Made by a program: the position numbers and the translations under genes
NCBI GenBank assembly: GCA_029239875.1
Contig: JARBUD010000003.1
Coordinates: 1 to 64,000 of the forward strand
DNA from: Xanthobacteraceae bacterium
GTDB lineage: Bacteria > Pseudomonadota > Alphaproteobacteria > Rhizobiales > Xanthobacteraceae
Reading direction: 5' to 3'
DNA length: 64,000 bases
Notes under the pieces: generated by a model
The model's database searches: none
What the model was told of the DNA's origin: nothing
Seen by the model: only the letters and a program-made list of their open reading frames with translations
Shown here: positions 35,819-63,320 of the stretch, piece by piece
Layout of the letters: each line of letters begins with the position of its first letter
Position numbering within the stretch: the stretch's first letter is position 1

Positions 35819-37204
35819 TCAATGACCGGTGATGCGATCGGCGAGATGGGCGAGACGCGAGGTGTGGCCGAGCCCTGCCTCCTCGCGCTCATCGGCTATC
35901 CGGTACAGCTGGTACATGCTGTGGACGCCAAGCCAGCGCAGCGGTTCCGGCTCCCACGGTGCGACCGTGCGGTTGACCCACGGCAGCCGCACGAGCTCGG
36001 TGTCCCGACGCAGGACGAGGTCGCAAAGCGTGCGGCCGGCGAGATTGGAGCTCGACACGCCAAGCCCCACATAGCCGCCCGCCCAGCCGATGCCGGTTTC
36101 GCGATCGAGACCGACGCTGGTGCACCAGTCGCGCGGCACGCCGAGCACGCCGCACCAAGCATGATCGATCTTGGCGCCCGACGCTTGCGGCAGCAGCCGG
36201 TCGAGGATGGCCCGCAGTTTGTCGATCGTGGCCTGCTGCGTCTGCCCGCGCACATCGGTCTTCGAGGCGAAGCGGTAGGGAACGCCGCGCCCGCCCATGG
36301 CGATGCGCCCTTCGCGGGTGCGCTGGGCATAGCAGTAAGCGTGCGCGTAGTCGCCGAGCAGTTCGTACCCCTTCCAGCCGATCTCGTCCCACAGCGACTG
36401 CGGCAGCGGCTCGGTGATGATCTGCGCGCTGTTCAGCGGCAGGACGGCCCGCTCATAACCGGGTAGGCCGGGAGTAAAGCCTTCGGTGGCGCGGATGACC
36501 AGCGGTGCGCGCACCGTGCCGCGATCGGTCGTCACCCGGCCTTTTTCGATGCGGGTGACGTTCGTCTGCTCGTAGATCGGCACGCCGAGGCGTTCGACGA
36601 TCGCGGCGAGGCCGCGTACCAGCTTGGCCGGCTGCACGCGGGCCATGTCGCGGATCACCAAGGCGCCCTGCACATTGCGGATGTTGATGCGCGCCCGGGT
36701 CTCCCGCGCGTCCAGCATCGCGATCCGCTCTTGCGGCATCTCCCATTGCAGCATCGTCCCATACTCCGCGAGCGCGCGGTCGAGCTGCGGCTTGTTGACG
36801 GCAACGTTCAGATTGTCCGCGCGGACGATGTCGGCGTCGATGCCTTCCGCTTCGGCAACGGCAATGACCTCGTCAACCGTGCCGGCCATGGCGCGCTGCA
36901 TATCCACGACACCGCCTCGCGTCGAGGTCTTGAGATATTTCTCGCGCGACCACCAGAAACCGCCCGAGAGCCAGCCGCCGTTGCGTCCGGAAGCGCCGAA
37001 GCCGGCAAACTCGCGCTCGACGATCACGATGCGGATCGAGGGATCGGCCTTCCGAAGATAATAGGCCGTCCACAGCCCGGTATACCCGGCCCCGACGATA
37101 CATACATCCGCCTCGATATCGCCCGGCAGCGAGCGGCGGGGCGCCGGTATGCCGCCAATATCAGCGTACCAAAACGAGATATTGCCGTTGGTCTTCACGT
37201 CCAT
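35819..37204 (-). CDS. FAD-dependent amine/amino acid oxidoreductase (DAO family, PuuB-like)
   Basis: The 461-residue flavoprotein has the dinucleotide-binding motif in DVCIVGAGYTGLWTAYYLRK (about 33-52) and ERE plus GFGASGRNGGWLSGGFWW, the pattern seen in gamma-glutamylputrescine oxidase and related DAO enzymes. The C-terminal FAD contact is WAGGYVGLGVSSSNLAGRTL. It should oxidise a C-N bond of an amine or N-substituted amino acid. No signal peptide is visible, so it is cytosolic. It is the last gene of the large minus-strand cluster, 89 bases after the SDR. The start at MDVKTNGNIS fits the family; the frame stays open upstream only because it overlaps the SDR out of frame. Confidence 0.88.
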   Translation of the reverse strand: MDVKTNGNISFWYADIGGIPAPRRSLPGDIEADVCIVGAGYTGLWTAYYLRKADPSIRIVIVEREFAGFGASGRNGGWLSGGFWWSREKYLKTSTRGGVVDMQRAMAGTVDEVIAVAEAEGIDADIVRADNLNVAVNKPQLDRALAEYGTMLQWEMPQERIAMLDARETRARINIRNVQGALVIRDMARVQPAKLVRGLAAIVERLGVPIYEQTNVTRIEKGRVTTDRGTVRAPLVIRATEGFTPGLPGYERAVLPLNSAQIITEPLPQSLWDEIGWKGYELLGDYAHAYCYAQRTREGRIAMGGRGVPYRFASKTDVRGQTQQATIDKLRAILDRLLPQASGAKIDHAWCGVLGVPRDWCTSVGLDRETGIGWAGGYVGLGVSSSNLAGRTLCDLVLRRDTELVRLPWVNRTVAPWEPEPLRWLGVHSMYQLYRIADEREEAGLGHTSRLAHLADRITGH

Positions 37205-37293
37205 GGCGGCGGCCTTTAATTGCGAGGGGGCGGGTGACGATGAGGTCGGCCTAGCGGTCATCCGCCAGCAGCTTGCATCGCTCCAAAGCAAAG

Positions 37294-38031
37294 TCAGATG
37301 ATCGAGCCGCCATTGATGCCGAGGACCTGCCCGGTGATGTAGCTCGCCTCGTCGGACAGCAGGAAGGCGACGGGTGCGGCGATCTCCGCCGGGTCCGCCT
37401 CGCGGCGCAGCGGAATGTTGCTGAGCCATCCCTGCCGGACCTCCTCGGGCACCGCTTCGATCATCGGCGTCGCCGTCGCGCCCGGCGCCACCGCATTGGC
37501 GCGGATGCCGTGCCGGGCGTGCTCGAACGCCACCGTGCGCGTCAGCCCCACCAGCCCGGCCTTGGCCGCGGCATAGTTGGACTGGCCGAACGCTCCCCAG
37601 CGCGATTCCGAGGACAGGTTCACGATGGCGCCGCCGTGCCCGATCATGTGGGGAATGACCGCCTGGCACCCCAGCCATACGCCGCGCAGATTGACGTCGA
37701 GCACGACCTGCCAGTCTTCGTCGCTCATCTTCAGCAGCGAGCGGTCGCGGGTCAGTCCGGCATTGTTGGCGAGGCCGTCGATCCGGCCGAATGCCTCCAG
37801 CACCCGTGCCGTGGCCGCCGTCCACTGCTCGCGGCTCGCCACGTCGAGCGCGACCGCCAGCGCCCGCCCGCCGGCTTCACCGATCTGCGCTGCGACGCGT
37901 TCGGCGCCGGGCACGTTGCGGTCGGCGACGACGACCGCCGCGCCCTCTTCGTGGAGGCGCCGGGCGATGGCCGCGCCGATGCCCTGGGCCGCGCCGGTGA
38001 CCATCACGACCTTGTCCTTCAGGCCCCGCAT
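37294..38031 (-). CDS. SDR family 3-oxoacyl reductase/dehydrogenase (FabG-like)
   Basis: The 245-residue SDR has a full active site: TGAAQGIGAAI, NNAGLTRD, NLSSESRWGAF with the catalytic serine, and YAAAKAGL with Y-x3-K. The C-terminus (YITGQVLGINGGSII) is FabG-like. It probably interconverts a hydroxyacyl and oxoacyl intermediate. The ATG overlaps the MaoC stop codon by one base, so hydratase and dehydrogenase are translationally coupled, as expected for consecutive beta-oxidation-type steps. Confidence 0.92.
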   Translation of the reverse strand: MRGLKDKVVMVTGAAQGIGAAIARRLHEEGAAVVVADRNVPGAERVAAQIGEAGGRALAVALDVASREQWTAATARVLEAFGRIDGLANNAGLTRDRSLLKMSDEDWQVVLDVNLRGVWLGCQAVIPHMIGHGGAIVNLSSESRWGAFGQSNYAAAKAGLVGLTRTVAFEHARHGIRANAVAPGATATPMIEAVPEEVRQGWLSNIPLRREADPAEIAAPVAFLLSDEASYITGQVLGINGGSII

Positions 38032-38474
38032 CACTCAGCCCCGCCGATCAGATATTTGTTGTAGCCGGACTGCACCGTTTCCCCTTTCTGGTTGGTAATC
38101 GCCACCTCGACCTCGACGACACCCCGCGACGGGTTCTTGGAGCTGGGCGTCGTGGCGGTGACGCGGTAATTCTGGCAGATGCGGTCGCCGGGCAGCACCG
38201 GGAGCAGCATGTTCCGCTGCGTCTCGAGGAAGGCGATGATCTTCCAGCCGTCGAGTTCGGGGCACCGCAACCCCTCGCCGAGGGCGTGGACCAGCAGGCC
38301 ATGCGCGATGCGGGTGGGGAACGGCGTGTTGGCCCGCACCCATTCCTCGTCGGTGTGCAGCGGGTTGAAATCGCCGCTGATGCCGGCGAAATTGACGATG
38401 TCGGCTTCGGTAACGGTGCGGCCGGCCGAGCGATATTCGGCGCCGACGCGGATCATGTCGAAAGTGATTTCCAT
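38031..38474 (-). CDS. MaoC-family enoyl-CoA hydratase
   Basis: The 147-residue hotdog protein has the hydratase-2 motif intact: FAGISGDFNPLHTDEEWVRA with the catalytic Asp and His, then TRIAHGLLVHALG. It would add water to a 2-enoyl-CoA. It sits 2 bases after the DUF35 gene and directly before the SDR. The order thiolase-like, DUF35, MaoC matches steroid side-chain degradation modules, where MaoC and DUF35 proteins form one complex; that parallel is inference from gene order. Confidence 0.92.
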   Translation of the reverse strand: MEITFDMIRVGAEYRSAGRTVTEADIVNFAGISGDFNPLHTDEEWVRANTPFPTRIAHGLLVHALGEGLRCPELDGWKIIAFLETQRNMLLPVLPGDRICQNYRVTATTPSSKNPSRGVVEVEVAITNQKGETVQSGYNKYLIGGAE

Positions 38475-38476
38475 GG

Positions 38477-38884
38477 TCAGGGCTTCGTGAAGCAGGGCAT
38501 GACGAGCCCCGGATGGATCTGTCGAAAGACGGCCACGAGGTCCATGTCGCAGCGCAGCTCATCCTCGGGCACGTCGACGATCCAGCTCGTCAGGCGAGGC
38601 CCCTCCTCGAGCTCCACGATGGCGAGCGTGAAGGGCGTGAGGGCGGCGAATTGCGGGTGGAGGGAGCGCTTCACCACGGTGAAGGAGTAGAGCTTCGCCC
38701 GCCCGGACGCCTCGACCCATTCGGGCTCCCGATCGGGCGCACCTACGACCCGTGCGCGCGGATACATCTGCGCCTTGCCGGTGAGGGGATCGCGCTGCAC
38801 CAGGAGCCGGCCTTCGGCCACCGCGTCGAACCAGATCGAGGAGAGTGCATCCCTGACGGGAAGGACCGCTTCCATTTCCATCAT
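38477..38884 (-). CDS. DUF35 OB-fold protein without zinc-ribbon cysteines
   Basis: The 135-residue protein is of the DUF35 type (acyl-CoA-associated OB fold). DUF35 proteins usually begin with a rubredoxin-like zinc ribbon (C-x2-C ... C-x2-C) followed by the OB fold. Here, in the expected place, LVQRDPLTGKAQMYPRARVV has no cysteine at all. The OB part (ASGRAKLYSFTVVKRSLHPQ through FTLAIVELEEGPRLTSWIVD) is normal. Its ATG overlaps the thiolase-like stop (ATGA). Such proteins bind thiolase-like partners and are often needed for their activity. Confidence 0.85.
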   Translation of the reverse strand: MMEMEAVLPVRDALSSIWFDAVAEGRLLVQRDPLTGKAQMYPRARVVGAPDREPEWVEASGRAKLYSFTVVKRSLHPQFAALTPFTLAIVELEEGPRLTSWIVDVPEDELRCDMDLVAVFRQIHPGLVMPCFTKP

Positions 38885-40059
38885 CGTCCTGCTCCGAGAA
38901 TGAGGGTCGCGGTGGCCGACAGCCAGCCGCCCGTGCCGTTGACGAGGCACAGCTCCGGCGCGTCGAGCTGGAAGCCCGGACTCTCGCCGCGCAGCTGGCG
39001 CACCGCCTCGATGACGGCGTACATGCCGCGCCGGCCCGAATGGTTGGAGGACAGGCCGCCGCCATCGGTGTTGATCGGCAGCCGGCCGGTCGGACCGAGC
39101 CCGCCGCCCGAGATGAAGTCGCCGACCTCTCCGCGCGGCACGAAGCCGAGCGTCTCGAGCGTCAGCGCCACCGTGATCGTGAAGGAATCGTAGATCTGCG
39201 CGACGCGGATATCGTCCGGGCCGACACCGGCCGAGGCGAAAGCCCGCTGGCCCGAATATTCGGCGCTGGTGGTGGTCAGGTCCGCCATCTGGTTCATCTG
39301 GATCTGGCTGATGGCCTCGCCGAAGCCGAGCACGGCCGGCCCGCCGCGGCGGGTATCGCGCGCCCTCTCCCGCGACGTGACGACGACCGCGCCGCCGGAA
39401 TCGCTCACGACGCAGCAATCCAGCTTGCGCAGCGGCGTCGAGATCATGGTGGAGGCGAGCACGTCGTCCACCGTGATCGGATCGCGGAACATCGCCTCGG
39501 GATTGAGATGGGCGTAGTCGCGCATCTGCACGGCGATCTGCGCCAGTTGCTCGGAGCGCAGGCCGTAGCGATGCATGTAGCGCGTGGCCGCCAGCGCGTA
39601 GGCCGAGATGGTCGATATGCCGTAGGGCACTTCATACTGCCCGGGCCCGGTCGGACCGGAATTGAAGTCCGGCGCCGGCAGCGGCCAGGAACGGCCGCTC
39701 GCCGCATAGCTGATCACGACGACCTCGCACAGGCCGGCCGCGATCGCCGCCACGGCGTGGCCGACATGGCTCAGCGCCGAAGCCCCTCCGATATCGGTCC
39801 CGCATATCCAGCGCGGGCGCAGCCCGACATATTCGGCAACCTCGACGGCATTGAGCTGCCAGCCCGCCTCGGCGGGAAAGGAGGCCGCCGTGGCGAAGCC
39901 GTCGACCTCGTCCGGCGCGATGCCGGCATCCGCCAGCGCCGCCGCGATCACCTCGGAATGGATCTGGAAGGGATGGATGTTCGGCGCCCTGCGACGCGGC
40001 GATTCGAAAGCGCCGACGATCTGGCAGGTGCCGCTCGGGAAGTTTGCGCGTGAGGTCAT
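38881..40059 (-). CDS. Thiolase-like protein without catalytic Cys (lipid-transfer/retro-aldolase type)
   Basis: This 392-residue protein has the thiolase fold (SCP2-thiolase/Ltp branch). Where thiolases carry the nucleophilic cysteine, this one reads TDIGGASALSHVGHAVAAIA, so it cannot do classical Claisen chemistry. It keeps AQIYDSFTITVALTLETLGF, with a tyrosine at the place used by Ltp2-type aldolases, and the C-terminal CLVNGTGGWLSATATLILG. Paired with DUF35 and MaoC genes, it is best read as a retro-aldolase releasing a short acyl-CoA plus a ketone or aldehyde. This is established for steroid Ltp2-DUF35 and inferred here. Confidence 0.85.
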   Translation of the reverse strand: MTSRANFPSGTCQIVGAFESPRRRAPNIHPFQIHSEVIAAALADAGIAPDEVDGFATAASFPAEAGWQLNAVEVAEYVGLRPRWICGTDIGGASALSHVGHAVAAIAAGLCEVVVISYAASGRSWPLPAPDFNSGPTGPGQYEVPYGISTISAYALAATRYMHRYGLRSEQLAQIAVQMRDYAHLNPEAMFRDPITVDDVLASTMISTPLRKLDCCVVSDSGGAVVVTSRERARDTRRGGPAVLGFGEAISQIQMNQMADLTTTSAEYSGQRAFASAGVGPDDIRVAQIYDSFTITVALTLETLGFVPRGEVGDFISGGGLGPTGRLPINTDGGGLSSNHSGRRGMYAVIEAVRQLRGESPGFQLDAPELCLVNGTGGWLSATATLILGAGR

Positions 40060-40073
40060 GGATCGCTCGACGG

Positions 40074-41780
40074 TTATGAACGCCGCGGTGCCCGCATCGC
40101 CTTGATGCCGAGCACGACGGTTCCCAGGAGGACAGGCAGCGTGACGAGAGCGGCGACGGCTGAGACTGCCGGCGTGATGCCGCTCTTGAGGAAGGAATAG
40201 ATCGTCACCGGCAGCGTCTTATCGAGCTCGGTCTGGAACATCGCGATCACCGCTTCGTCCCACGAGGTGACAAAGGAGATGACGAACGAGCCGACCAGCG
40301 CCGGGACAAGGGAGGGCACGATCACCGACCAGAAGGCGCGCGAGCGGCCGGCCCCCATGGTCCAGGCCGCCTGCTCCATCGAGCCGTCGACGAAGGACAG
40401 CGCGTTGGCCAGCACGAGGAAGGTCAGGGGCAGGCACAGCACCGCATGGGCGAGGACGAGACCGATGTCCGTGCCGAGCAGTCCGATGCGGCCCTGTATG
40501 TCGAACACGCCGATGCCGAGCAGGATGACCGGTACGATCAGCGGCGTGATGGCGCCCACCTGGATCACCGTGCGCCAGAAGGGCGAGGCCAGCCGCATGC
40601 CGACGCGGGCGAGCGCCAGCCCGCACGCGGTCGACACCACCGCCGTCGCCAGACCGACGCGGATGCTCTTGAGAAGCGACTCGATCCAGAGCGGCGAGGT
40701 CACCACCTCGGCGAACCACTTCCAGCTGAAGCCCACCGGCGGAAAGCGGATCTGCGTGGTCTCGGTAAAGGCGGTCGGGATCACCACGAGCAGCGGCAAT
40801 ATGAGCAGGATCAGCACGACGCCGAGCACCAGCCAGCACAGCGCCATCACCAGCGTCAGGCGCAGCGGTTCCTCGCTCGAAGCGCCGCGCGTGCCGTGCT
40901 GGGCCGGCGTGAGAATGCCCCGGCCGCCGATCTTCAGGGCGGCAATATAGCCGAGGGTGGAGACCGCGAGCAGCACCACTCCCATGGCCGCGGCCTTGCC
41001 CCACTGGAAGGTCTGGACCTGCTGCTGGATGAAGATCGGGATCGTCAGATTGTGCGGGCCGCCGAGGATGGCCGGGGTGAGGAAGAAGCCCAGCGACAGC
41101 ACGAAGACAAGGACCATGCCGCTGGCGAGGGCGGGACGAATCTGCGGGAAGTAGATGTCGAGAAACACCCGGCGCTCCGATGCGCCCATGGTCCGTGCCG
41201 CCGTCAGCAGCGACGTATCGATCGACCGCATCGCCGACAGCAGGATCAGGACGAGGTAGGGCAGCAGGTACGCCACCATGCCGGTGACGGTGGCGAAGGT
41301 GTTGTAGAGCAGCACGAACGGCCCGAGATCCACCAATGACAGGGCGGAATTGATCAGGCCCTGTCGGCCGAGGATCGTCGTGAAGGCGAAGAGCCGCACG
41401 ATGATCGACACCCAGAAAGGCATCAGGATCGCCACCAGCAGCAGCGAGGAGAGCTGGCGCGACAGGCGCGACACGATATAGGCGGCGGGAAAGGCGAGCA
41501 GCACGGTGATGGTCGTCGACACCGCAGCCAGCATCAGGCTGTGCTGAACCACCTGCCAGAGCAGGTCGTCGCGGACGATGGCGAGGTAGTGGCCCCAATA
41601 GAGCTGATCGCCCAGCGCGGCGCGCCCCTTCTCGTTGAGGCTGCGCAGCACGATGCTCGCCAGCGGCCAGAGCAGCGAGAACCCGAAGATGGCCAACACG
41701 GGAGCGAGCAGGACGAACCGCATGCAGGCATCGCGTGCCTGTGCGCTACGGTGCCCCGTCCGCTGCGCGCCTGCCGTCAC
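40074..41780 (-). CDS. ABC importer fused double permease (PotB-PotC type in one chain)
   Basis: The 568-residue protein carries two complete permease halves. The first (about 25-290) has the ATPase-contact loop LTAARTMGASERRVFLDIYF; the second (about 310-565) has MEQAAWTMGAGRSRAFWSVI. Each half has the EAA-like A-x3-G motif. Polyamine permeases are normally two proteins, whereas some Fe3+ importers (FbpB/SfuB) are fused in this way. The start is taken as GTG at 41780, which overlaps the carboxylase stop as GTGA and leaves a short basic cytosolic N-terminus; the ATG at 41723 would begin inside the first helix. The matching ATPase is at 46921 and the binding protein at 45605. Confidence 0.9.
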   Translation of the reverse strand: MTAGAQRTGHRSAQARDACMRFVLLAPVLAIFGFSLLWPLASIVLRSLNEKGRAALGDQLYWGHYLAIVRDDLLWQVVQHSLMLAAVSTTITVLLAFPAAYIVSRLSRQLSSLLLVAILMPFWVSIIVRLFAFTTILGRQGLINSALSLVDLGPFVLLYNTFATVTGMVAYLLPYLVLILLSAMRSIDTSLLTAARTMGASERRVFLDIYFPQIRPALASGMVLVFVLSLGFFLTPAILGGPHNLTIPIFIQQQVQTFQWGKAAAMGVVLLAVSTLGYIAALKIGGRGILTPAQHGTRGASSEEPLRLTLVMALCWLVLGVVLILLILPLLVVIPTAFTETTQIRFPPVGFSWKWFAEVVTSPLWIESLLKSIRVGLATAVVSTACGLALARVGMRLASPFWRTVIQVGAITPLIVPVILLGIGVFDIQGRIGLLGTDIGLVLAHAVLCLPLTFLVLANALSFVDGSMEQAAWTMGAGRSRAFWSVIVPSLVPALVGSFVISFVTSWDEAVIAMFQTELDKTLPVTIYSFLKSGITPAVSAVAALVTLPVLLGTVVLGIKAMRAPRRS

Positions 41781-43324
41781 GAGGCCGGCCCCGAGAGCGG
41801 CTGGCGATAGGCCAGTCGGACCAGACGCGCGAGATAGCGGCGCGTGTCGCGAGGATCGATCATCTCCTCCGCCGCGAAATTCTCGATGGCCCGCCAGACC
41901 GAGGTCTGCGCCTCGAAGCGTTTCGTCAACTCCTTCTTGAGTGCGGCCCGGTCCTCCGGGGCGACCGCGGCGAGCTCGGCGCGGAACGCCGCCTCCACCC
42001 CGCCTTCGAGCGGCATGTCGCCCCAGGCGGCGCTGGGCCAGCACAGCCGCAGGCTCAGCAGATTGGCATTGCCGGTCGCGACCCCGCCCAGGCCGTAGGA
42101 GCGGCGGACCTGTACGGTGTAGACCGGCACCTTGGCCTGCTGGATGGCACGCAGCGCCAGCGAGCCGAACTTCAGCACGCCGGCCTCCTCCGCCTTCGGC
42201 CCGACGAGAAAGCCCGGCACGTCGGCGAGATAGGCGAGCGGGATGTGGAAGCGGTCGCACATCTCGACGAACTTCACCTGCTTCAGCGACGAGGGAACGT
42301 CGAGCGAACCGGCGATGAAACGGTTGTCGGACGCCAGCACGCCCAGGACATGTCCCTCGATGCGGGCGAAGCCGGTACGCAGCGAGCGGCCGTAGTCCGG
42401 CGCTATCTCGAAGAAGCTTTCGCGGTCGACGATGCAGTCGATCATGGCGTGCACGTCGTAGATGCGCCGCAGGTTCGGCGGGACGATCGCCAGAAGCTCG
42501 TCCTGGTCGTTGGCTTCCCAGTGGTCGAGGACGGCGGGGCGGGAGCCGACATTGTCCGGCAGGAAGGAAAGCGCCCGCTTCAGCGCGGCGAGCGCCTCGT
42601 CCTCGTCCGCCACCTGGTTGTCGATGAGCCCGGAGGCGCGCGCATGCACGTCGGCTCCGCCGAGCGCGAACTTGTCGATTTCCAGACCCAGCGCCTGCTT
42701 CACGACCGGCGGGCCGCCCGCGAAGAGGCAGCCATTGTCCCGCGTCATCACCGAGAAATGCGAGATGTTCGCCCGCGCGGCAGAGCTGCCCGCGGTCGGG
42801 CCGAGCACCGCGGCGAGCACCGGCACCTTCTCCATCAGGTCGAACATCGGGAAGGTGGGATTGGCCGCCTGCAGCTCCGGATAGCCGATGGCATCCTGCA
42901 GGATGACGGAACCGCCGACGCCGTTGATCAGCACCACCAGCGGAATGCGATAGCCGAGGGCGAACTCCTCGATGAAACCACCCCAGCCGCCCTTGTAGCG
43001 TGCAAGATGGACGCCGGTGCCCCCGCCTTCGACGCTGAAATCCTCGGCGCCGATCGCGACCGGCCGACCGTCGATCTCGCACAGGCCGCACACGAAGGTC
43101 GCGGCGAGCGGCGAGCCGTCGGCCGTGGGCGTCGTGACGAATGTGCCGATCTCAAGGAAGGTGCCCTCGTCGACCAGCTTCTGGATCCGCTCGCGCGCCG
43201 TCGACCGGCCGTAGCGATGCTCACGGGCCACCCGGTCCGGGCCGCCGGACGCGAGAGCGACCTCGCGGCGGCGCTCCAGCTCTTCGAGGAGCGGCGCCCA
43301 TTCGGGAGGAGGTGTCCTTGTCAT
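41777..43324 (-). CDS. Biotin-dependent acyl-CoA carboxylase, carboxyltransferase (beta) subunit
   Basis: The 515-residue protein is a full-length carboxyltransferase of the PccB/MccB type. Both crotonase-like halves are visible, with GGGTGVHLARYKGGWGGFIE and GPTAGSSAARANISHFSVM in the N-half and DVPGFLVGPKAEEAGVLKFG and RRSYGLGGVATGNANLLSLR in the C-half. It transfers CO2 from biotin to an acyl-CoA. The N-terminus (ERIQKLVDEGTFLEIGTFVT) is standard. Its partner, the biotin carboxylase/BCCP subunit, is on the opposite strand at 48077. It follows the acyl-CoA ligase by three bases, suggesting that the product of the ligase is carboxylated. Confidence 0.94.
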   Translation of the reverse strand: MTRTPPPEWAPLLEELERRREVALASGGPDRVAREHRYGRSTARERIQKLVDEGTFLEIGTFVTTPTADGSPLAATFVCGLCEIDGRPVAIGAEDFSVEGGGTGVHLARYKGGWGGFIEEFALGYRIPLVVLINGVGGSVILQDAIGYPELQAANPTFPMFDLMEKVPVLAAVLGPTAGSSAARANISHFSVMTRDNGCLFAGGPPVVKQALGLEIDKFALGGADVHARASGLIDNQVADEDEALAALKRALSFLPDNVGSRPAVLDHWEANDQDELLAIVPPNLRRIYDVHAMIDCIVDRESFFEIAPDYGRSLRTGFARIEGHVLGVLASDNRFIAGSLDVPSSLKQVKFVEMCDRFHIPLAYLADVPGFLVGPKAEEAGVLKFGSLALRAIQQAKVPVYTVQVRRSYGLGGVATGNANLLSLRLCWPSAAWGDMPLEGGVEAAFRAELAAVAPEDRAALKKELTKRFEAQTSVWRAIENFAAEEMIDPRDTRRYLARLVRLAYRQPLSGPAS

Positions 43325-43327
43325 GGG

Positions 43328-44902
43328 TCAGATCCCCCGGCTGTGGGCGGCGATCAGGTCGGAACAGGTTCTGGCAAGTTCCTTCTTGTCGACCTTGGTG
43401 GCGTTGCGGATCGGAAAAGCTTCCATGAAGAACATGTGCCGGGGCTTCTTGTAGGAAGCGAGCTTGTCCACCAGGAAGCCCATGATCTCGTCCCTGCGGA
43501 CCTCGTCGCTCCGGCGCGGGACGATGCAGGCGCACACCGCCTCGCCGAACTCTTCGTCCGGCACGCCGACCACGGCGACATCGAGGACCGCCGGATGCTG
43601 GCGCAATGCGTTCTCGATCTCCGCCGGGTAGATGTTCTGGCCCTTGGAGATGATGAGGTCCTTCGAGCGGCCGACGATGTAGATCCAGCCTTCCTCGTCC
43701 ATGCGGGCGAGATCGCCGATCCGCAGCCAGCCGTCGCGCACCGTCTCGGCATCGAGCTGCGGGGCGTTCCAGTAGTTGCGCATCACGCTCGGGCCCGCGG
43801 TCCACACCTCGCCGATCTCGCCGACGGGCACGTCATTGCCGTCCTGGTCGAGCAGGCGGATCGACTGGCCGGGAGTGACGCGGCCGACCGAGCCCGGGTG
43901 GAGCGCGATGTCATCGCCCTCTATCAGGGTAGGAAAGCCGGTCTCCGTCGAGCCGTAGGAGATGGCGAGATGGATGTGCGGCCAGCGGCGGCGAACCTCC
44001 GCCATCAGTGCCGGCGGGCAGTTCTCGCCGCCCGTGTACCACCATTTCATGGTCGCCAGCGGCAGCGGCTCCTGCTCGTCCGCCTCGATCATGGGACGGA
44101 ACATCGAGGGGAAGACGAGGGCGTGGGTGATACCCCACCGGCTGATAACGGCACCGAGGCGCTGAGCGCTCCAGCCCCGGCTCGGCAGGATCGCCACCGT
44201 CCCGCCGACGAGGAAGGTGGGGATCGAGCTCTCATTGATCGCGGCGGTGTTGAACAGCGGCGCGTTGAGCAGCATGACCGCCCTGTCATCGAGCTCGCGA
44301 AACTGCGTGACCTGCTGCATCGCGGCCCAGGTGATCGCAAGCGAGCGCATGGCTACGCCCTTGGGCTTTCCGGTCGTGCCCGAGGTGTAGAGGATGAGGT
44401 GGACATCGGTATGGAAAGGCGTCGCGACCGGCTCCGTGCGGGCCGCGAGGGCCTCGTACGCCTCTCCGCTCGCCGCCGCCTCGAGCATGATGACGAGCGG
44501 CTTCAGGTCGAGCGCGGGCAGAGCGGCCTCGAGGCTGCCGGCAAGCTCGGTCTCGGTGAAGACCATTTTCGCCTGGCAGTCGTTCAGTATGGAGGCGATC
44601 TCCACGCTCGTCAGACGGAAGCTGACCGGCACGAGCGTCACCCCGGCGAAGGCCGCGGCGAAGTAGAGCTCGAACATCTCTCCGCGATTGTACAGCAGGG
44701 CCGCGACGCGATCCCCGGTCTGCAGCCCTGCGGCGCGGATCGCGCCGGCCAGGCGGCGCGCCCGCTCGCGCAGTTCGCCATAGGTCCGCGATCCGTGCTC
44801 CCACACCAGCGCCGTCTTGCCGGGCTGGTGGAGCGCCTGCGCGCTGTATTCGCCGAGAATAGAGGAGACGCACCCGAAAGCGGGCGCCTTGCTATCTGAC
44901 AT
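43328..44902 (-). CDS. Acyl-CoA ligase (AMP-dependent synthetase family)
   Basis: The 524-residue ANL-family enzyme activates a carboxylic acid to its CoA thioester through an acyl-AMP. Motifs seen are the P-loop YTSGTTGKPKG, SYGSTETGFP (A5), GWLRIGDLARMDEEGWIYIV then GRSKDLIISKGQNIYPAEIE (A7-A8), and the A10 lysine in RNATKVDKKELAR. Length is normal. The substrate is not readable from motifs; the context is an imported acid. It is the third gene of the minus-strand operon, after the binding protein and TetR. GGAAGACTTCC (44904-44914), a palindrome, overlaps its ribosome-site region. Confidence 0.94.
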   Translation of the reverse strand: MSDSKAPAFGCVSSILGEYSAQALHQPGKTALVWEHGSRTYGELRERARRLAGAIRAAGLQTGDRVAALLYNRGEMFELYFAAAFAGVTLVPVSFRLTSVEIASILNDCQAKMVFTETELAGSLEAALPALDLKPLVIMLEAAASGEAYEALAARTEPVATPFHTDVHLILYTSGTTGKPKGVAMRSLAITWAAMQQVTQFRELDDRAVMLLNAPLFNTAAINESSIPTFLVGGTVAILPSRGWSAQRLGAVISRWGITHALVFPSMFRPMIEADEQEPLPLATMKWWYTGGENCPPALMAEVRRRWPHIHLAISYGSTETGFPTLIEGDDIALHPGSVGRVTPGQSIRLLDQDGNDVPVGEIGEVWTAGPSVMRNYWNAPQLDAETVRDGWLRIGDLARMDEEGWIYIVGRSKDLIISKGQNIYPAEIENALRQHPAVLDVAVVGVPDEEFGEAVCACIVPRRSDEVRRDEIMGFLVDKLASYKKPRHMFFMEAFPIRNATKVDKKELARTCSDLIAAHSRGI

Positions 44903-44931
44903 CGGAAGACTTCCAGGAAATGTGCGATCGC

Positions 44932-45582
44932 CTAGCCGGCGAGCCGGCCGGCAACCGTCTTGCGAGCGGGAGTCTCACTTCTCGCCTGCGACTGCGCGCC
45001 GAGGCAGCGGATCCAGTACCGCACCGGCGACTGCTCGCGCAGGCGTATCATGACCTGTGGATTGACCAGTGCATGCATGCTCAGCCCGTCGGCAAGGCCG
45101 AGCAGATCGTGCGCGGCCGACCTGGGATCGAGATCGGGGGGCAGGTCCCCGCTCTCCTGGGCACGGCGGATGGCGGCCGAAACCGACTTCCGCCATCCGA
45201 TGAGATAGGTTTCGACTTCCTGGCGCAGCTCTTCCTCACGCATCGCCTCGACGTAGAAGAAGAAGAAGATGCGGCTGAGCGCCAGGCGCCGCCCGTCGAT
45301 CGGAATACTGCCTTCGAGGAGCTGCTCGAGCGCCTGGATGCCGTCGAGGGTATCGAGCACCCGCTTGTTATGCTCCGCGAGGATCTCGGCCGCGCGTCGT
45401 AAGCCGCCGAGAAGCAGATCCTGACGACCTCGGAAGTAATGCCCGATCACTCCGGTGGACCAGCCTCCCCGATCGGCGACCTCCCGGATCGTGGCGGCGG
45501 CGAGACCCGCCTCCGCCACGATGTCGAGGAGAGCGTCACAGATCTGCTGACGCCGTTCCTGATGGTCCACAATGCGCGGCAT
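44932..45582 (-). CDS. TetR family transcriptional regulator (BetI-like)
   Basis: The 216-residue repressor has an N-terminal helix-turn-helix (ALLDIVAEAGLAAATIREVA followed by DRGGWSTGVIGHYFRGRQDL) and a ligand-binding C-terminal domain. BetI-like members often respond to amines or acyl-CoA esters. It lies between the binding-protein gene (22 bases upstream) and the acyl-CoA ligase (29 bases downstream) in one transcript, so it probably represses its own operon. The ATG at 45582 has GGAG upstream; an extended Arg-rich N-terminus up to 45699 would overlap the binding-protein gene and is rejected. Confidence 0.92.
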   Translation of the reverse strand: MPRIVDHQERRQQICDALLDIVAEAGLAAATIREVADRGGWSTGVIGHYFRGRQDLLLGGLRRAAEILAEHNKRVLDTLDGIQALEQLLEGSIPIDGRRLALSRIFFFFYVEAMREEELRQEVETYLIGWRKSVSAAIRRAQESGDLPPDLDPRSAAHDLLGLADGLSMHALVNPQVMIRLREQSPVRYWIRCLGAQSQARSETPARKTVAGRLAG

Positions 45583-45604
45583 GCCCGCTCGCTCCGTCCG
45601 TTCT

Positions 45605-46699
45605 TCAGTTCTGCGCGACCCAGCGGTTGAAGCGATCAACGATCTGCGGAAGATTCTTCGAGTAGTACGAAGCATTCTCCTCGATCGCCTTCTTCGCATT
45701 ATCGCCCGCCACGATCCACGGTCCCAATTCGGGCCCGTAATCCGCCACGGTGAGGGCGATCAGCGGCGTCGCATAGGTGATCTGCGCCACCAGTTCCTTC
45801 TGGCCGGGCAGATCGGCGATGAAATGTGCGAGCATCACCTGGCCGCCGACGGCGTTCGGGGCGCCCTTGGGAATGGCATAGACCGCCTGCGAGTACAGCG
45901 AATCCTGCCAGACCAGCGCCAGCGGCGCCTTGTCGTTCTTGGCGGCGCTAAAGACGCGCCCGCTCCAGGCGATCCCGATAGAGCAATCGCCGCTGGACAG
46001 CAGGCGGATCGCCTCATCGCCATTGCTCCACCACAATATGTCGGACTTGATCTTGTCGAGTTCGGCGAACGCCTTGTCGAGATCGAGCGGATAGAGCTTG
46101 TCGCGGGGCACGCCGCTCGCCAGCAGCGCGGATTCGAGGACGCCGCCGAACTGCGGGTACTTGAACAGGCACCGCTTGCCCGGGAAGCGCTTCACGTCGA
46201 ACAGGTCGCTCATGCGCTTGGGCGCGGCGTCGCCTGAGAATTTCTCGGTGTTGTAGGTCAGCACTATGCCATAGCGCATGACATCGATGCCGTATTCGTC
46301 GTGGGCGCCCGGCTCGACCTTGGCGAGGTCCACGATCGAGGGATCGAGCTTGACCAGATATCCGGCGTCCCTGGCGCGGAGGAAGTCGCCCTTGGTCGGG
46401 AACTCCACCATGCTCCACGGGATCGACCCGCCGTTCTCCATCGCGGCGAAGAACTTCGTCACGTCGGAATTGAAGTCCATGCGGACGCTGACGCCGGTCT
46501 CGGCGGTGAAGTTCTTGTCGACCGTCGCGGTCCTGGCGCGCGTCGTCGCGCCGCCCGAGCTGTCATACATGACGACCTGCCCCGTCGCCTTGGCGCGCAC
46601 GCCCTGGGGCAGCACGTCGGCATGGGCCGGGGCCACGGCATAGGCGCCGGCGCATGCCGCCACCGCCAGAGTCGAGAGAGTCCTGAAGCCAATCATCAT
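45605..46699 (-). CDS. ABC transporter extracellular solute-binding protein (PotD/FbpA type)
   Basis: The 364-residue periplasmic binding protein has a Sec signal peptide (TLSTLAVAACAGAYAVAPAH, cleavage before ADV). Cluster landmarks are VYDSSGG-like strand 1 (VVMYDSSGGATT), YGIVLTYNTEKFSGDAAPKR, LFDVKRFPGKRCLF and the hinge segment WWSNGDEAIRLLSSGDCSIG. It resembles the paralogue at 62230 (shared KLYPLDLDKAF / KLYPLDVDRAF and AVYAIPKGAPNA / AAYAIPKGAANS). It is the first gene of the minus-strand operon, next to the divergent ATPase. The ligand is unknown; a small cationic or zwitterionic solute is likely for this class. Confidence 0.92.
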   Translation of the reverse strand: MMIGFRTLSTLAVAACAGAYAVAPAHADVLPQGVRAKATGQVVMYDSSGGATTRARTATVDKNFTAETGVSVRMDFNSDVTKFFAAMENGGSIPWSMVEFPTKGDFLRARDAGYLVKLDPSIVDLAKVEPGAHDEYGIDVMRYGIVLTYNTEKFSGDAAPKRMSDLFDVKRFPGKRCLFKYPQFGGVLESALLASGVPRDKLYPLDLDKAFAELDKIKSDILWWSNGDEAIRLLSSGDCSIGIAWSGRVFSAAKNDKAPLALVWQDSLYSQAVYAIPKGAPNAVGGQVMLAHFIADLPGQKELVAQITYATPLIALTVADYGPELGPWIVAGDNAKKAIEENASYYSKNLPQIVDRFNRWVAQN

Positions 46700-46920
46700 T
46701 TCCTGTTCCCCTGTTCCTGACGGCACTGCATTCTTTTTATTACGCCCATTATGTCAAAAACCGCGGACCGCACAACAGGAAACTCGCGCCGGCAACTCAT
46801 GTCGGCGCGGAGAGGCATAATTTGCTTGATGTCGCAAAGGATATTGACTTTAATCGGCGAGGTTCGGTGCGACGGCCCTCGCCTCTTTCCATCACGGTTG
46901 TGCTAAATAAAGGGGAGTGC
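46700..46920. promoter_or_regulatory. Divergent promoter region of the carboxylase/transporter cluster
   Basis: These 221 bases drive both arms of the cluster: binding protein to oxidoreductase leftward and ATPase, biotin carboxylase and thioesterase rightward. It is AT-rich next to both starts (TTCTTTTTATTACG near 46735; TTGATGTCGCAAAGGATATT near 46845). The TetR encoded in the left arm is the likely regulator. I could not single out one clear palindrome. Confidence 0.5.
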
Positions 46921-48057
46921 ATGGCAGTTCACGAGGTTGCGGAGAGCCGGTCCACCCACGGCCAGGCCCATGCCGCGTCGGCCAACAGCATCACCATCGA
47001 CGGGCTCGCGCTGACATTCGCGAACGGCCATATCGGCCTGCAGTCGACCCACCTGCACGTTCCCGGCGGCCAGTTCTGCACGCTCCTCGGCCCGTCTGGC
47101 TCCGGCAAGACGACGCTGCTGCGTGCCATCGCCGGGCTCGCCAAGCCGACGGCCGGGCGCATCCTGATCGGGAGCACCGACGTCACCGGGCTCGACGTGC
47201 AGGCGCGCAACATCGGCTTCGTGTTCCAGAACTACGCGCTGTTCCCCCACATGAACGTCGCGGAGAACATCGAGTACCCGCTCAAGCTGCACAAATGGAG
47301 CGAAGCCGACCGCGCGGTGCGGGTGAAGGAGATACTGGACCTGATCGAGCTGCCCCATGCCGGCCGGCGAATGGTCGGCGAACTCAGCGGCGGGCAGCAG
47401 CAGCGCGTCGCCATCGGGCGCGCCCTCGCCTATCGTCCAGCGCTGCTTCTGCTGGACGAGCCCATGGGCGCCCTCGACCGCCGGCTTCGCCAGCAGCTCG
47501 GCGCGGATCTGCGCGAGATCCAGCAGCGCGCCGGCATCACAGCAGTGTATGTGACCCACGATCAGGAGGAGGCCTTCATCCTCTCGGATCGCATCGCGAT
47601 CATGGCGGGTGGCGTGATCCAGCAATATGCCGCGCCCAGCGAGCTCTATTTCCGGCCGCGCACCCGGTTCGTCGCGGATTTCCTCGGCGAGGCGAACCTC
47701 GTGGAGGTGACCGCTCCGCTTGTGGCGACGGCTTCCGGCTTCGAGGCGACCACAGCCTACGGGCCGATCCGCGTCGAGGCGGCCGACCGCCCGGAGGGAG
47801 CGTCCAAGCCCACCCTGGTGGTGCGGCCGGAGGACATCGTACTGACGAGGGACGGCGCGGAGCGGGACGGCCATGTCCGGCCCATCCCGGTCGAGATCGT
47901 GCGCGAACTCTTCCTCGGCAGCCGCTGCCTCGTGACCGCCCGGGCCCCGACGGGCCAGGAATTCCGGGTCGAATGCGCCAAGTCGCGGCCGACGCATGGC
48001 GATGCCGGCTTCTGGATCAGCTGGGCGCATTCGGCTGCTGTCCTCGTCGATGAATGA
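46921..48057 (+). CDS. ABC transporter ATP-binding protein (PotA/FbpC type)
   Basis: The 378-residue ATPase has Walker A GPSGSGKTT, Q-loop FVFQNYALFPHMNVAENIEY, signature LSGGQQQRVAIGRALAY, Walker B LLLDEPMGALD and H-loop YVTHDQEEAF, followed by a regulatory TOBE domain (about 285-375). It should energise the fused permease at 40074 with the binding protein at 45605. AAAGGGGAG precedes the ATG. The biotin carboxylase follows 19 bases after the stop. Confidence 0.94.
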   Translation: MAVHEVAESRSTHGQAHAASANSITIDGLALTFANGHIGLQSTHLHVPGGQFCTLLGPSGSGKTTLLRAIAGLAKPTAGRILIGSTDVTGLDVQARNIGFVFQNYALFPHMNVAENIEYPLKLHKWSEADRAVRVKEILDLIELPHAGRRMVGELSGGQQQRVAIGRALAYRPALLLLDEPMGALDRRLRQQLGADLREIQQRAGITAVYVTHDQEEAFILSDRIAIMAGGVIQQYAAPSELYFRPRTRFVADFLGEANLVEVTAPLVATASGFEATTAYGPIRVEAADRPEGASKPTLVVRPEDIVLTRDGAERDGHVRPIPVEIVRELFLGSRCLVTARAPTGQEFRVECAKSRPTHGDAGFWISWAHSAAVLVDE

Positions 48058-48076
48058 ACTGATGTCCGGAAAGAAG

Positions 48077-49747
48077 ATGAAGCGAATCCTGATTGCCAAT
48101 CGCGGCGAGATCGCGCTGCGCATCGTTCGGGCCTGCCGCGACGCTGGCTATGTCTCGATCGCGATCGCCTCCGACGCCGATCGTCACGCCGTCCATGCGC
48201 GCCATGCCGACGAGGTGTATCCGCTCAAGGGCAACGCGCCGCGCGACACCTATCTGAACCAGGAGGCGATCCTCGACATCGCCGCGCGTTCGAAAGCCGA
48301 TGCCGTCCATCCCGGCTACGGCTTCCTGGCGGAGAACGAGCAGTTCGCGGCCGCGGTGGAGGCGGCGGGGCTGACATGGATCGGCCCGCCCGCCGACGCC
48401 ATCGCCCGGCTGGGCGACAAGGTCGCCGCGCGCGCGATCGCCCGCAGCGTCGGCGCTCCCCTGCTTCCCTCGCTCGAGGAGGGCGAACTGAGCATCGAGG
48501 GTGCCCGCGCCTTCTGCCTCGAAAGCGGCCTTCCCGTCATCGTGAAGGCGCAGAATGGCGGCGGCGGCCGCGGCATGCGCATCATTCGCGAGATGTCGGA
48601 AGTGGAAGGCCAGATCGCCGCCGCCCAGCGCGAAGCGGGCATGGCCTTCGGGCGCTCCGAATGCTTCATCGAGCGCTATGTGGAACGCGCGCGCCATATC
48701 GAGACCCAGTGCCTTGCGGACCATCACGGCAACGTCGTCGTCGTCTCCACTCGCGACTGCACATTGCAGCGTCGTCAGCAGAAGCTGGTGGAGGAAGCGC
48801 CCGCCCCGTTTCTCGATGCCGCGCAGCGGGCACGCCTCACGGAGGCCTCGGTGGGCATCCTCGCCGCGGTCGGCTATCGCGGCGCCGCGACCTGCGAATT
48901 CCTGCTCACCCCCGAGGGCGACATCTTCTTCCTCGAAGTGAACACGCGCATCCAGGTGGAGCATCCCGTCACCGAGGAGGTGACCGGCGTCGACCTCATC
49001 CGCGAGATGTTCAGAATTGCCGAAGGCGGCCGGCTCGGCGAGGTTCCTCCCACTCGCGGCCACGCCATCGAGTTCCGTATCAACGCCGAGGATCCATGGG
49101 CCGACTTCCGGCCGACGCCGGGCCGCATCGACAGGCTCCGCCTGCCTACCGGTCCCGGCGTGCGGGTCGATTTCGGCTATGTCGAGGGCGATACCGTCCC
49201 TCCCCACTATGATTCATTGATCGGCAAGGTGATCGTCACGGGCGCCAGCCGACAGGAGGCCCTGGAACGGGCGCGCAGGGCGCTGGCCGAGCTCGATGTG
49301 GCGGGGGTGACCACCATCGCGCCCTTCCACCGCGCGGTTCTGGAGTGCGAAGAATTCTCGGCCGACGAGCCGGCCGGCTTCACCGTCTATACGCGCTGGA
49401 TCGACGCGGAGTTGCCGCGTATCGCCGAGGCAGCCCCCGAGCACACCCGCCCGCCCGGCGCGGCGGCCGCATCCGCCGAGATCGGCCCGTCGCACGAGGC
49501 GGCCGAGGAAGATCGGGAACCGGCGCCGAGCTACCGGGTCGGCATCAAGGCGCCGCTGGCGGGCATCGTCCAGCAATTCTGCGTCCGGCAGGGCGACCGC
49601 GTCGCGCGCGGCGATGTCGTCGCCATCATGGAAGCGATGAAGATGGAACAGCCGGTGCTCGCAGAGGATGCCGGCATCATCGCCTGTATGAACATCGGCG
49701 AGGGCGATTTCATCGAGATGGACGCCGACATCATGGGGCTCGACTGA
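48077..49747 (+). CDS. Acyl-CoA carboxylase alpha subunit: biotin carboxylase plus biotin carrier
   Basis: The 556-residue protein has a full ATP-grasp biotin carboxylase (about 1-450), with MKRILIANRGEIALRIVRAC, the glycine loop KAQNGGGGRGMRI, and EVNTRIQVEHPVTEEVTGVD carrying the catalytic Glu/Arg/His region. A C-terminal biotinyl domain (about 485-556) has the biotin-attachment site VVAIMEAMKMEQPV. It is about 100 residues shorter than PccA or MccA because the middle domain that docks the beta subunit is essentially missing. The ATG at 48077 is chosen (GGAAAG upstream, canonical MKRILIANRGE); 48050 and 48062 are alternatives. The partner carboxyltransferase is at 41777. Confidence 0.94.
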   Translation: MKRILIANRGEIALRIVRACRDAGYVSIAIASDADRHAVHARHADEVYPLKGNAPRDTYLNQEAILDIAARSKADAVHPGYGFLAENEQFAAAVEAAGLTWIGPPADAIARLGDKVAARAIARSVGAPLLPSLEEGELSIEGARAFCLESGLPVIVKAQNGGGGRGMRIIREMSEVEGQIAAAQREAGMAFGRSECFIERYVERARHIETQCLADHHGNVVVVSTRDCTLQRRQQKLVEEAPAPFLDAAQRARLTEASVGILAAVGYRGAATCEFLLTPEGDIFFLEVNTRIQVEHPVTEEVTGVDLIREMFRIAEGGRLGEVPPTRGHAIEFRINAEDPWADFRPTPGRIDRLRLPTGPGVRVDFGYVEGDTVPPHYDSLIGKVIVTGASRQEALERARRALAELDVAGVTTIAPFHRAVLECEEFSADEPAGFTVYTRWIDAELPRIAEAAPEHTRPPGAAAASAEIGPSHEAAEEDREPAPSYRVGIKAPLAGIVQQFCVRQGDRVARGDVVAIMEAMKMEQPVLAEDAGIIACMNIGEGDFIEMDADIMGLD

Positions 49748-49748
49748 C

Positions 49749-50264
49749 ATGCCCCACATCGCCTTCCCCGGCGTTGCGGCCGACGATCGGCCACAAAGCC
49801 GGGCTCTCGTGACCCTGGAAGGGCACGTCGACGACAGCTGGATCGACTACAACGGCCACATGACCGAGTGGCAGTATTACAAGGTGCTGTCCGACGCGGG
49901 CGAAAACTTCCTGCGTGCCGCCGGTTTCACCGAAGAGTACCGGCTGCAGGGTTACAGCTTCTTCTCGGTCGAGGGACATATGAGAAATCTCAGGGAGTGC
50001 CGTGTCGGCACGCCCTTGCGTGTCCTGAGCGAGATGCTCGGCTACGACGACCTGCGCCTGCACATCTACCAATATGTCGTCGATACGACGCGTGATGTCG
50101 TCCTGGCCACTGGCGAGCACATGATGCTTCACGTCGACACGCGGTTGCGCAAGGCAACGCCACTGCTGCCGGACATGGCCACCCGCCTCGATCAGGCACT
50201 GCATCAATGGCGCCCCGATCTGCGGCCCAGGACACAGGTCCTCAGGATGGCGCCCAACACGTAG
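49749..50264 (+). CDS. Hotdog acyl-CoA thioesterase (betainyl-CoA thioesterase-like)
   Basis: The 171-residue 4HBT-type hotdog protein contains VDDSWIDYNGHMTEWQYYKV and GYSFFSVEGHMRNLRECRVG. D-Y-N-G-H-M is the 4HBT-like active-site turn and strongly resembles the thioesterase domain of carnitine/betainyl-CoA metabolism. It would release CoA from an intermediate or a dead-end ester. It starts right after the biotin carboxylase stop, so it is the last gene of the rightward arm. Confidence 0.82.
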   Translation: MPHIAFPGVAADDRPQSRALVTLEGHVDDSWIDYNGHMTEWQYYKVLSDAGENFLRAAGFTEEYRLQGYSFFSVEGHMRNLRECRVGTPLRVLSEMLGYDDLRLHIYQYVVDTTRDVVLATGEHMMLHVDTRLRKATPLLPDMATRLDQALHQWRPDLRPRTQVLRMAPNT

Positions 50265-52198: not shown

Positions 52199-52217
52199 TC
52201 CAGCCACGCGCACAGAG

Positions 52218-52241
52218 CGTCCGGGGCCACGGCCCCGGACG
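52218..52241 (+). terminator. GC-rich hairpin between aminotransferase and SDR genes
   Basis: CGTCCGGGGCC pairs perfectly with GGCCCCGGACG across only two bases, in the 71-base gap after the aminotransferase. Without a T-run it is more likely an attenuator, RNase stop or partial terminator that sets different expression levels than a full terminator. Confidence 0.45.
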
Positions 52242-52269
52242 TAGCCGACCCAAACGAGAGAGGCAGGGC

Positions 52270-54314: not shown

Positions 54315-54318
54315 TAGC

Positions 54319-56073: not shown

Positions 56074-56086
56074 TCCACGGCGCCCC

Positions 56087-62116: not shown

Positions 62117-62229
62117 TTTTGTCTAACGTTTCCCGGCCGAGAGTGACGCCGGATGAGAGAACTCACGGGGTCTCCGAGCCGGCATTCCGCCAAACAAGAA
62201 CGTCCAGAAGGCAGCCACGGGGAACAGAT

Positions 62230-63318: not shown

Positions 63319-63320
63319 AA

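Follow-up and report, generated by a model that had tools for sequence, protein, structure and literature searches.

Gene content of the locus

The window analysed here is a stretch of 64,000 nucleotides from a Xanthobacteraceae bacterium (contig JARBUD010000003.1, positions 1 to 64,000). Between positions 35819 and 50264 it carries thirteen genes that an earlier note on this DNA had described as an import-and-degrade system built around a thiolase-like protein (THL). Pfam and NCBIfam profile searches found all thirteen at the given place and with the given families. On the minus strand, for which coordinates are window positions and start codons were picked by us, the first gene encodes a solute-binding protein (SBP) of the SBP_bac_8 family, a relative of proteins that bind gamma-aminobutyric acid (GABA) (45605-46726; PF13416, E 6e-28). 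It is followed by genes for a TetR regulator (44932-45582; PF13977, PF00440), an AMP-forming acyl-coenzyme A (acyl-CoA) ligase (43328-44902; PF00501/PF13193), the carboxyltransferase subunit of an acyl-CoA carboxylase (41777-43324; PF01039) and a fused ATP-binding cassette (ABC) permease with two BPD_transp_1 stretches (40074-41723; PF00528 twice). Next come THL, a Cys-less thiolase-like protein and putative retro-aldolase (38881-40059; PF22691), a DUF35 or ChsH2-type OB-fold partner whose gene overlaps the THL stop codon (38477-38884; PF01796, E 4e-21), a MaoC hydratase (38031-38474; PF01575), a FabG-like short-chain dehydrogenase/reductase (SDR; 37294-38034; PF13561) and a flavin adenine dinucleotide (FAD) oxidoreductase of the DAO family (35819-37204; PF01266). 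The successive gaps are 22, 29, 3, 53, 14, -4, 2, -4 and 89 bases; the widest lies in front of the FAD oxidoreductase, and the others range from a 4-base overlap to 53 bases.

The three plus-strand genes encode an ABC transporter ATPase (46921-48057), whose best NCBIfam matches are phosphonate- and polyamine-type ATPases, all of those shown being below cut-offs, a biotin carboxylase fused to a biotin carrier domain (48077-49747; NCBIfam matches to both parts) and a 4HBT_2 thioesterase related to the hotdog part of carnitine 3-dehydrogenase (49749-50264; PF13279). A palindrome at 46737-46754 is a candidate TetR operator.

Twelve of the thirteen genes recur as a unit

When 84,980 species genomes were scanned with a pattern, 108 candidate stretches emerged, from which 67 loci were obtained. 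THL matches at 78-83% identity were found in five genome loci: Ancylobacter crimeensis (L032), the metagenome-assembled genome KLAP69 (L033), Rhizobium rhizogenes ST15 (L034), Mesorhizobium Root102 (L035) and Ensifer USDA 6670 (L036). Of the 72,556 PLSDB records, 198 have a THL match at E<=1e-40, and the four above 60% identity all carry the unit: Aureimonas pSA4125 (L119), Sinorhizobium meliloti pSmeMABNR56a (L120), S. chiapasense pB (L121) and Agrobacterium tumefaciens pLN1-233332 (L122). In these nine other loci (five genome records, four plasmids) the order of the nine minus-strand genes from SBP to SDR and of the three on the plus strand is preserved, at 59-83% identity and with three small exceptions. 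The import-and-degrade system of the earlier note is thus conserved as a whole, with one correction to the proposed operon: the terminal FAD oxidoreductase is not a member.

The exceptions concern the thioesterase and the SBP. In Ancylobacter the thioesterase is split over two frames (G397:C26:125961-126442), which is either an assembly error or real; a thioesterase search of the Aureimonas locus gave no match; in KLAP69 the SBP gene is about 18 kb distant, in L111. Orientation is also kept in all five genome loci, bar the Ancylobacter thioesterase and the KLAP69 SBP.

Across the core loci, identities are 76-83% for THL, 77-81% for the carboxyltransferase, 69-76% for the permease, 68-73% for the SDR, 66-72% for both the ligase and the biotin carboxylase, 64-69% for the SBP (an ortholog of which is present in nine of nine other loci), 61-72% for TetR and 59-66% for the ATPase. 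The catalytic motifs of the ligase (YTSGTTGxPKG), MaoC (GDFN[PS]LH) and the biotin site (E[AS]MKM) are intact in all ten loci. In ten other core genes, pairwise identity rises and falls with that of THL (r 0.81-0.92 over 45 pairs per gene). The ten core THLs form one clade (support 100/99); the tree was built with 83 of 107 rows, after 24 near-duplicate or short ones had been dropped.

Within the order (397 genomes), the strongest match to THL apart from the window's own had an E value of 8e-98 and 52% identity; within the class (385 genomes), the window's genome alone reached 1e-120. A THL protein search scored 7,998 candidates and gave 527 relatives at E<=1e-100; among the best 120 of these 527, the window's own THL is followed by 48 protein clusters 73-85% identical. 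The unit is thus rare and patchily distributed, and at least some of its copies are carried on plasmids. Three of the four unit-bearing plasmids are typed conjugative. The distribution favours horizontal spread of a mobile unit among soil and root bacteria. As the earlier note had supposed, no description of this gene set under a named pathway was found in the open-access literature; subscription papers might hold one.

THL and its DUF35 partner

THL was rightly described as Cys-less: it has GGAS and GTGG at the two positions where thiolases carry their cysteines. With neither cysteine present, thiolase chemistry is not expected. Its relatives among solved structures are 4u4e (the best, 321 bits), 9myr and 6ok1. 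We take 6ok1 to be Ltp2 and 9myr to be Sal, in keeping with their YDHF and YDCY motifs, and 4u4e, solved as a 'Thiolase', presumably comes from Sphaerobacter thermophilus. The latter has the same YDSF and His as THL (see below), a likeness at the level of sequence.

Tyr290 of THL stands in YDSF and aligns with Ltp2 Tyr294 and Sal Tyr302, both catalytic according to PMC12329534, in whose examined text the 'YDS' motif is absent. THL resembles the steroid side-chain retro-aldolases Ltp2/ChsH2 and Sal/Shy of the SCP2-thiolase superfamily in its Cys-less thiolase fold, its YD tyrosine, its DUF35 partner and its MaoC hydratase, and the earlier note had placed it correctly in this company. It differs from them in having YDSF where Ltp2 has YDHF and Sal YDCY, and His340 at the position of Ltp2 Tyr344 and Sal Gln352. 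The DUF35 partner also differs, lacking the zinc ligands of a Cys4 or Cys3His ribbon, and MaoC and DUF35 are here encoded separately, in a cluster that also holds a carboxylase and an importer of the amino-acid type. Retro-aldol cleavage, which the earlier note had proposed, is plausible from the THL active site; the reaction itself we infer.

The same site is found in the relatives of THL. Among 106 rows at 35-83% identity, in which three genes were entered twice, 95 are YDS/His, 10 are YDA/His and one is YDS/Gln; YD[SA]F is present in all 106 and its tyrosine is combined with the His in 105. As judged from these alignments, YDSF/His is a distinct, conserved active-site class, and no paper on it was found in the open-access literature. 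Proteins of the THL family occur widely and frequently bear the annotation 'acetyl-CoA acetyltransferase', which their active site does not support: 105 of the 106 rows share the Cys-less YD[SA]F/His site.

In the DUF35 protein, the only PF01796 match in the window's genome, the zinc ribbon PF12172 scores below its cut-off (20.2 of 23.2 bits). The ribbon stretch contains no Cys in the window or in any of the nine other core loci. Among other DUF35 relatives with this stretch covered, 70 of 75 rows (two genes entered twice) keep at least three Cys; L031 (0 Cys) and L130 (2) were left out of this count, their alignments starting later. The five exceptions outside the core, L124 and L027 (0 Cys), L123 and L064 (1) and L019 (2), mean that Cys loss is not unique to the unit.

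Amine-related features of the unit and its surroundings

The best solved relatives of the SBP are the GABA sensor Pf622 (9d57, 6dgv) and 4eq7/4euo, which we take to be Atu4243; both bind GABA. The residues of the GABA site of Pf622 are listed in PMC12999171, and in an alignment the window SBP keeps the equivalents of T13, W202 and R205 as T61, W254 and R257, with Tyr152 at the place of F102 and Met150 at that of F100. The Trp and the Arg are invariant in ten of ten loci; at the position of T61, L111 has Leu.

A DAO-GCV_T fusion related to dimethylglycine dehydrogenase was found within 2.4 kb of the unit in seven of the ten loci (seven of nine other loci). It follows the SDR on the same strand, 40 and 60 bases on, in KLAP69 and Mesorhizobium, and is on the opposite strand in L034, L036, L120, L121 and L122; one gene stands between it and the unit in L121, and an IS5 transposase in L122. 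Genes for FolD, PurU and electron-transfer flavoprotein (ETF) come after it in L120, L121 and L122 (three of nine other loci), those of L120 being identified by similarity to L121, L122 and L125. On a Shinella plasmid (L125, 9971-21696), DAO-GCV_T is accompanied by acetoacetate-CoA ligase, thiolase, a Rid protein, FolD, PurU and ETF, with no unit.

The enzyme MABO, from the lower nicotine pathway of pAO1, is presumably a DAO-GCV_T protein. According to PMC6214936, MABO-FolD-PurU is the demethylation route of N-methyl-GABA in nicotine catabolism; the likeness lies in a DAO-GCV_T-type flavoenzyme with folD and purU and in a route through GABA and succinate semialdehyde. The presumed counterpart of the pAO1 module is present only beside relatives of the unit and is absent from the window. 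DAO-GCV_T groups at 51-52% identity were tried as a guide between dimethylglycine and N-methyl-GABA, and the two contexts examined gave no decision. Hygrine-type alkaloids and tropane acids were set aside as chemical guesses; the papers listed for hygrine in the open-access literature are, by their listing, on other subjects.

Enzymes that could complete GABA degradation are also found near the unit. L122 has annotated genes for GABA transaminase and succinate-semialdehyde dehydrogenase; L120 has a dehydrogenase 81% identical to the latter, L036 has a reading frame similar to it (our own reading), and L034 has a class-III aminotransferase and an aldehyde dehydrogenase, assigned by family only. 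A class-III aminotransferase lies within 10 kb of the unit in four of the six genomes counted (expected 0.04-0.06 each, P ~8e-5), and GCV_T within 5 kb in four of six (P ~1e-6); these values assume random placement, the families were chosen after being seen and so tested post hoc, two of the six genomes are related Rhizobiaceae, and the GCV_T counts include fragments. The nitrogen-containing substrate foreseen in the earlier note is favoured by the GABA-type SBP, by DAO-GCV_T near seven of ten loci and by the aminotransferase in four of six genomes; the FAD oxidoreductase on which that note had relied lends it no support.

The FAD oxidoreductase is not part of the unit

A tblastn search with the FAD oxidoreductase, proposed earlier as a member and as the amine step, left all 96 loci without a match at E<=1e-8, and in the four plasmid loci nothing at E<=1e-20 lay close to the unit; L120 has a 27% relative at a distance of about 16 kb. 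By Pfam it has no GCV_T domain. It matches 32 plasmid records, and the 15 listed of these 32 are about 75-80% identical. In the two of those records that were examined, the relative sits with its own ABC transporter, annotated as polyamine-type in one of the two, and with cupin or regulator genes. From these comparisons it looks like a separate, adjacent module. As the amine step of the pathway it finds no support: it is not conserved, and the two relatives examined belong to another importer module.

Carboxylase, thioesterase and related modules

Compared with solved relatives, the carboxyltransferase scores 257 bits with propionyl-CoA carboxylase beta, at most 181 with methylcrotonyl-CoA and 141 with geranyl-CoA carboxylases. 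The 1vrg segment AYGGAYIAMGSKHLGAD, which presumably lies in the acyl pocket and sets specificity, reads SYGLGGVATGNANL-LS in the window protein. A housekeeping propionyl-CoA carboxylase is weakened as a candidate by this difference in the pocket segment, and the pocket comparison speaks mildly against plain propionyl-CoA as the substrate. Relatives of the carboxyltransferase at 42-46% identity, in Rhodococcus, Cupriavidus and Variovorax, have mixed gene neighbourhoods and gave no guide to the substrate.

The carboxylase and THL also meet elsewhere. In L129/L028 a carboxyltransferase (41%), a weak DUF35 match, a THL (45%), a biotin carboxylase (43-44%) and an SDR are neighbours, and in L041 a biotin carboxylase-carboxyltransferase fusion lies about 4 kb from THL-DUF35; the pairing is therefore not unique to the unit. 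These other carboxylase and THL/DUF35 clusters (L129, about 7-15 kb; L041, 2.5-11.6 kb) have different relatives and are a wider, uncharacterised family of pathways. Azospirillum (L123) and R. gallicum (L124) have sister modules in which THL, DUF35, MaoC and SDR cluster with annotated CoA-transferases instead, and no carboxyltransferase match was obtained in either; in L124 a 50% relative of the biotin carboxylase is found about 8.5 kb off, next to a gene annotated as urea amidolyase.

The thioesterase has a single NCBIfam match, NF005716 (E 2e-35, domain region only). It resembles in this way the thioesterase part of carnitine 3-dehydrogenase, and differs from it in being stand-alone, with no carnitine dehydrogenase in the unit.

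A candidate operator

A palindrome near TTATTACAGCTGTAATAA is common to the intergenic stretches of the ten loci and to two further KLAP69 stretches, one of which precedes a GMC oxidoreductase of the choline-dehydrogenase family. The motif has an information content of 15.1, compared with 9.13 +/- 0.18 in 12 mononucleotide shuffles, a value that related loci inflate. KLAP69 also has sites that were outside motif building (scores 21.6, 22.7 and 19.4), before an FAD oxidase/cupin pair and between an SDR gene and a DUF1330 gene; 0.6 sites per 64 kb with a score of at least 11.5 are expected by chance. TetR is a probable repressor of the unit.

Four whole genomes were searched with an IUPAC pattern allowing up to two mismatches, with controls. 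The window's genome gave four rows at three places, none of them in this locus (control 7); Ancylobacter gave one row, outside the unit (control 9); Mesorhizobium gave five, at one place inside the unit and two outside it (control 8); KLAP69 gave six, at three places that are all in the island and were all used for motif building (control 10). The counts do not exceed those of the controls, and the genome-wide search therefore adds little.

An operator-like palindrome was also observed about 200 bases into the tetR coding region of the five Rhizobiaceae loci (L034, L036, L120, L121, L122), where it may simply reflect coding constraint. The KLAP69 island (L033/L111) contains a second TetR copy, a choline-dehydrogenase-like GMC oxidoreductase, an EutQ-type cupin, an amidase and a dimethylformamidase-like protein, and several genes of this island stand behind operator-like sites.

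Proposed pathway and alternatives

From the gene content, order, conservation, motifs and relatives of the unit we infer its reactions, their order and its substrate. We tentatively favour, at a probability of about 0.4, the view that the unit is mobile, is probably under the control of TetR and serves to break down a small carboxylic acid that bears an amine, most likely an N-methylated, GABA-sized zwitterion. The GABA-type SBP and the ABC transporter would import the acid, and the ligase would form its CoA thioester. The biotin carboxylase/carboxyltransferase would carboxylate that thioester or an intermediate, and MaoC would hydrate an unsaturated CoA ester. The resulting beta-hydroxyacyl-CoA would be cut in a retro-aldol reaction by THL and the zinc-free DUF35, via Tyr290 and perhaps His340. 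The SDR would reduce or oxidise a carbonyl or alcohol intermediate, and the thioesterase would free the nitrogen-containing acid. In most bearers DAO-GCV_T would then remove the N-methyl group, in some with FolD, PurU and ETF, and in some bearers GabT/GabD-type enzymes would finish the degradation.

A bolder claim, which we consider doubtful, is that this constitutes an undescribed catabolic logic, plasmid-borne among root and soil bacteria: an N-methylated GABA-like acid would be converted to its CoA ester, carboxylated, hydrated and cut by a third active-site class (YDSF/His) of thiolase-superfamily lyases working with a zinc-free DUF35, in connection with tetrahydrofolate-dependent N-demethylation. 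Should the substrate be an N-methylated plant or soil compound, the unit would be a plasmid-borne nutrition trait of rhizobia and their relatives, and DUF35 would have a role that needs no zinc. Being compact and equipped with an importer, a regulator and a candidate operator of its own, the unit is a direct route to the substrate of one THL-family protein.

Several observations weigh against the favoured pathway. The SBP has Ala281 at the position of Pf622 Asp228, which binds the GABA amine (PMC12999171), and Ser57 at that of Trp9; given the Ala, the ligand is therefore not simply GABA. No DAO-GCV_T match was obtained near the unit in Ancylobacter or Aureimonas, nor near it in the window, whose own genome has only partial matches of 27-31% elsewhere. 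Five of the seven loci with DAO-GCV_T are related Rhizobiaceae, the demethylase module is present without the unit in Shinella (L125) and Sphingobium (L126), and the enrichment of amine-related families was, as said, post hoc. The window's operator site is the weakest of the 12 (position weight matrix score 16.5) and misses the genome-wide IUPAC pattern. As for the chemistry, the carboxylation step has no assigned substrate. The 'oxidation' of the earlier note finds no support, as no acyl-CoA dehydrogenase is found among the twelve core genes, and the origin of a double bond is therefore unexplained. Finally, neither the acid Tyr344 of Ltp2 nor Cys304 of Sal (Ser292 in THL) is conserved, so the retro-aldol chemistry may not hold.

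Some of these points lead to the view that the unit and the amine genes are mere neighbours on catabolic islands and that the unit degrades a nitrogen-free acid. The demethylase module that occurs without the unit, the two of nine other loci in which the demethylase is wanting, the window oxidoreductase that looks like part of another module and the loss of the amine-binding Asp from the SBP would all fit. We consider it rather unlikely: the demethylase follows the SDR so closely on the same strand in KLAP69 and Mesorhizobium, the closest solved relatives of the SBP bind GABA, and operator-like sites in KLAP69 also precede the FAD oxidase/cupin pair and an SDR.

A second alternative keeps the amine and dispenses with the retro-aldol reaction. 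In a carnitine-like beta-oxidation of a crotonobetaine- or N-methyl-gamma-amino-acid-type substrate, the ligase, MaoC hydration and the SDR would yield a 3-ketoacyl-CoA, THL-DUF35 would cleave the C-C bond and the thioesterase would act on a betainyl-CoA-like product. A FabG-like SDR with MaoC is the pair expected for that order, and both the sole NCBIfam match of the thioesterase and the GABA-type SBP are in keeping with it. However, ordinary thiolysis is not expected of a THL without either thiolase cysteine, the core has neither carnitine dehydrogenase nor acyl-CoA dehydrogenase, and the carboxylase is left unexplained; we regard this route as distinctly unlikely.

The carboxylase is accounted for if the unit works by carboxylation, hydration and cleavage as in leucine or isoprenoid degradation. 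A beta-branched enoyl-CoA would be gamma-carboxylated, MaoC would form an ester resembling 3-hydroxy-3-methylglutaryl-CoA (HMG-CoA), and THL-DUF35 would replace HMG-CoA lyase. One scheme then covers carboxylase, hydratase and aldolase, and the neighbouring carboxyltransferase, DUF35, THL and biotin carboxylase of L129/L028 (all but the DUF35 at 41-45% only), like the fusion in L041, are in line with it. The carboxyltransferase, however, scores higher with the propionyl-CoA than with the methylcrotonyl-CoA or geranyl-CoA enzymes, the Azospirillum and R. gallicum modules combine THL, DUF35, MaoC and SDR with no carboxyltransferase match, and the amine evidence is left unexplained, which makes this scheme improbable.

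The propionyl-CoA carboxylases, as best solved relatives of the carboxyltransferase, would fit an Ltp2-like degradation of an alpha-methyl acid, in which the retro-aldol cut would release propionyl-CoA for carboxylation to methylmalonyl-CoA. We find this quite improbable: the segment AYGGAYIAMGSKHLGAD, presumably in the acyl pocket, is SYGLGGVATGNANL-LS here, the disposal of propionyl-CoA needs no thioesterase, and the GABA-type SBP is left unexplained.

A synthetic, fatty-acid-synthase-like cycle (carboxylase for the extender, condensation by THL, reduction by the SDR, dehydration by MaoC, release by the thioesterase) fits the enzyme classes and is hardly credible for a cluster with an ABC importer and amine-degrading enzymes as frequent neighbours, a THL with no condensing cysteine and a core that encodes neither an enoyl reductase nor a carrier protein.

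Other genes in the window

A class-III aminotransferase (above the cut-off of NCBIfam PRK06105) and a second SDR lie 3' of the thioesterase, at 50822-53040; no close match to either was found next to the unit in the other core loci. The window segment 58442-61031 encodes a pcaF-like thiolase, an amidohydrolase-like protein and a protein resembling the 3-aminobutyryl-CoA ammonia-lyase of lysine fermentation (73.8 bits, cut-off 160), and possibly belongs to another beta-amino-acid route. A second complete ABC transporter, also with a fused permease, is located at 53190-57220, and a third, with a similar binding protein, starts at 62119-64000, which makes three such importers within about 18 kb.

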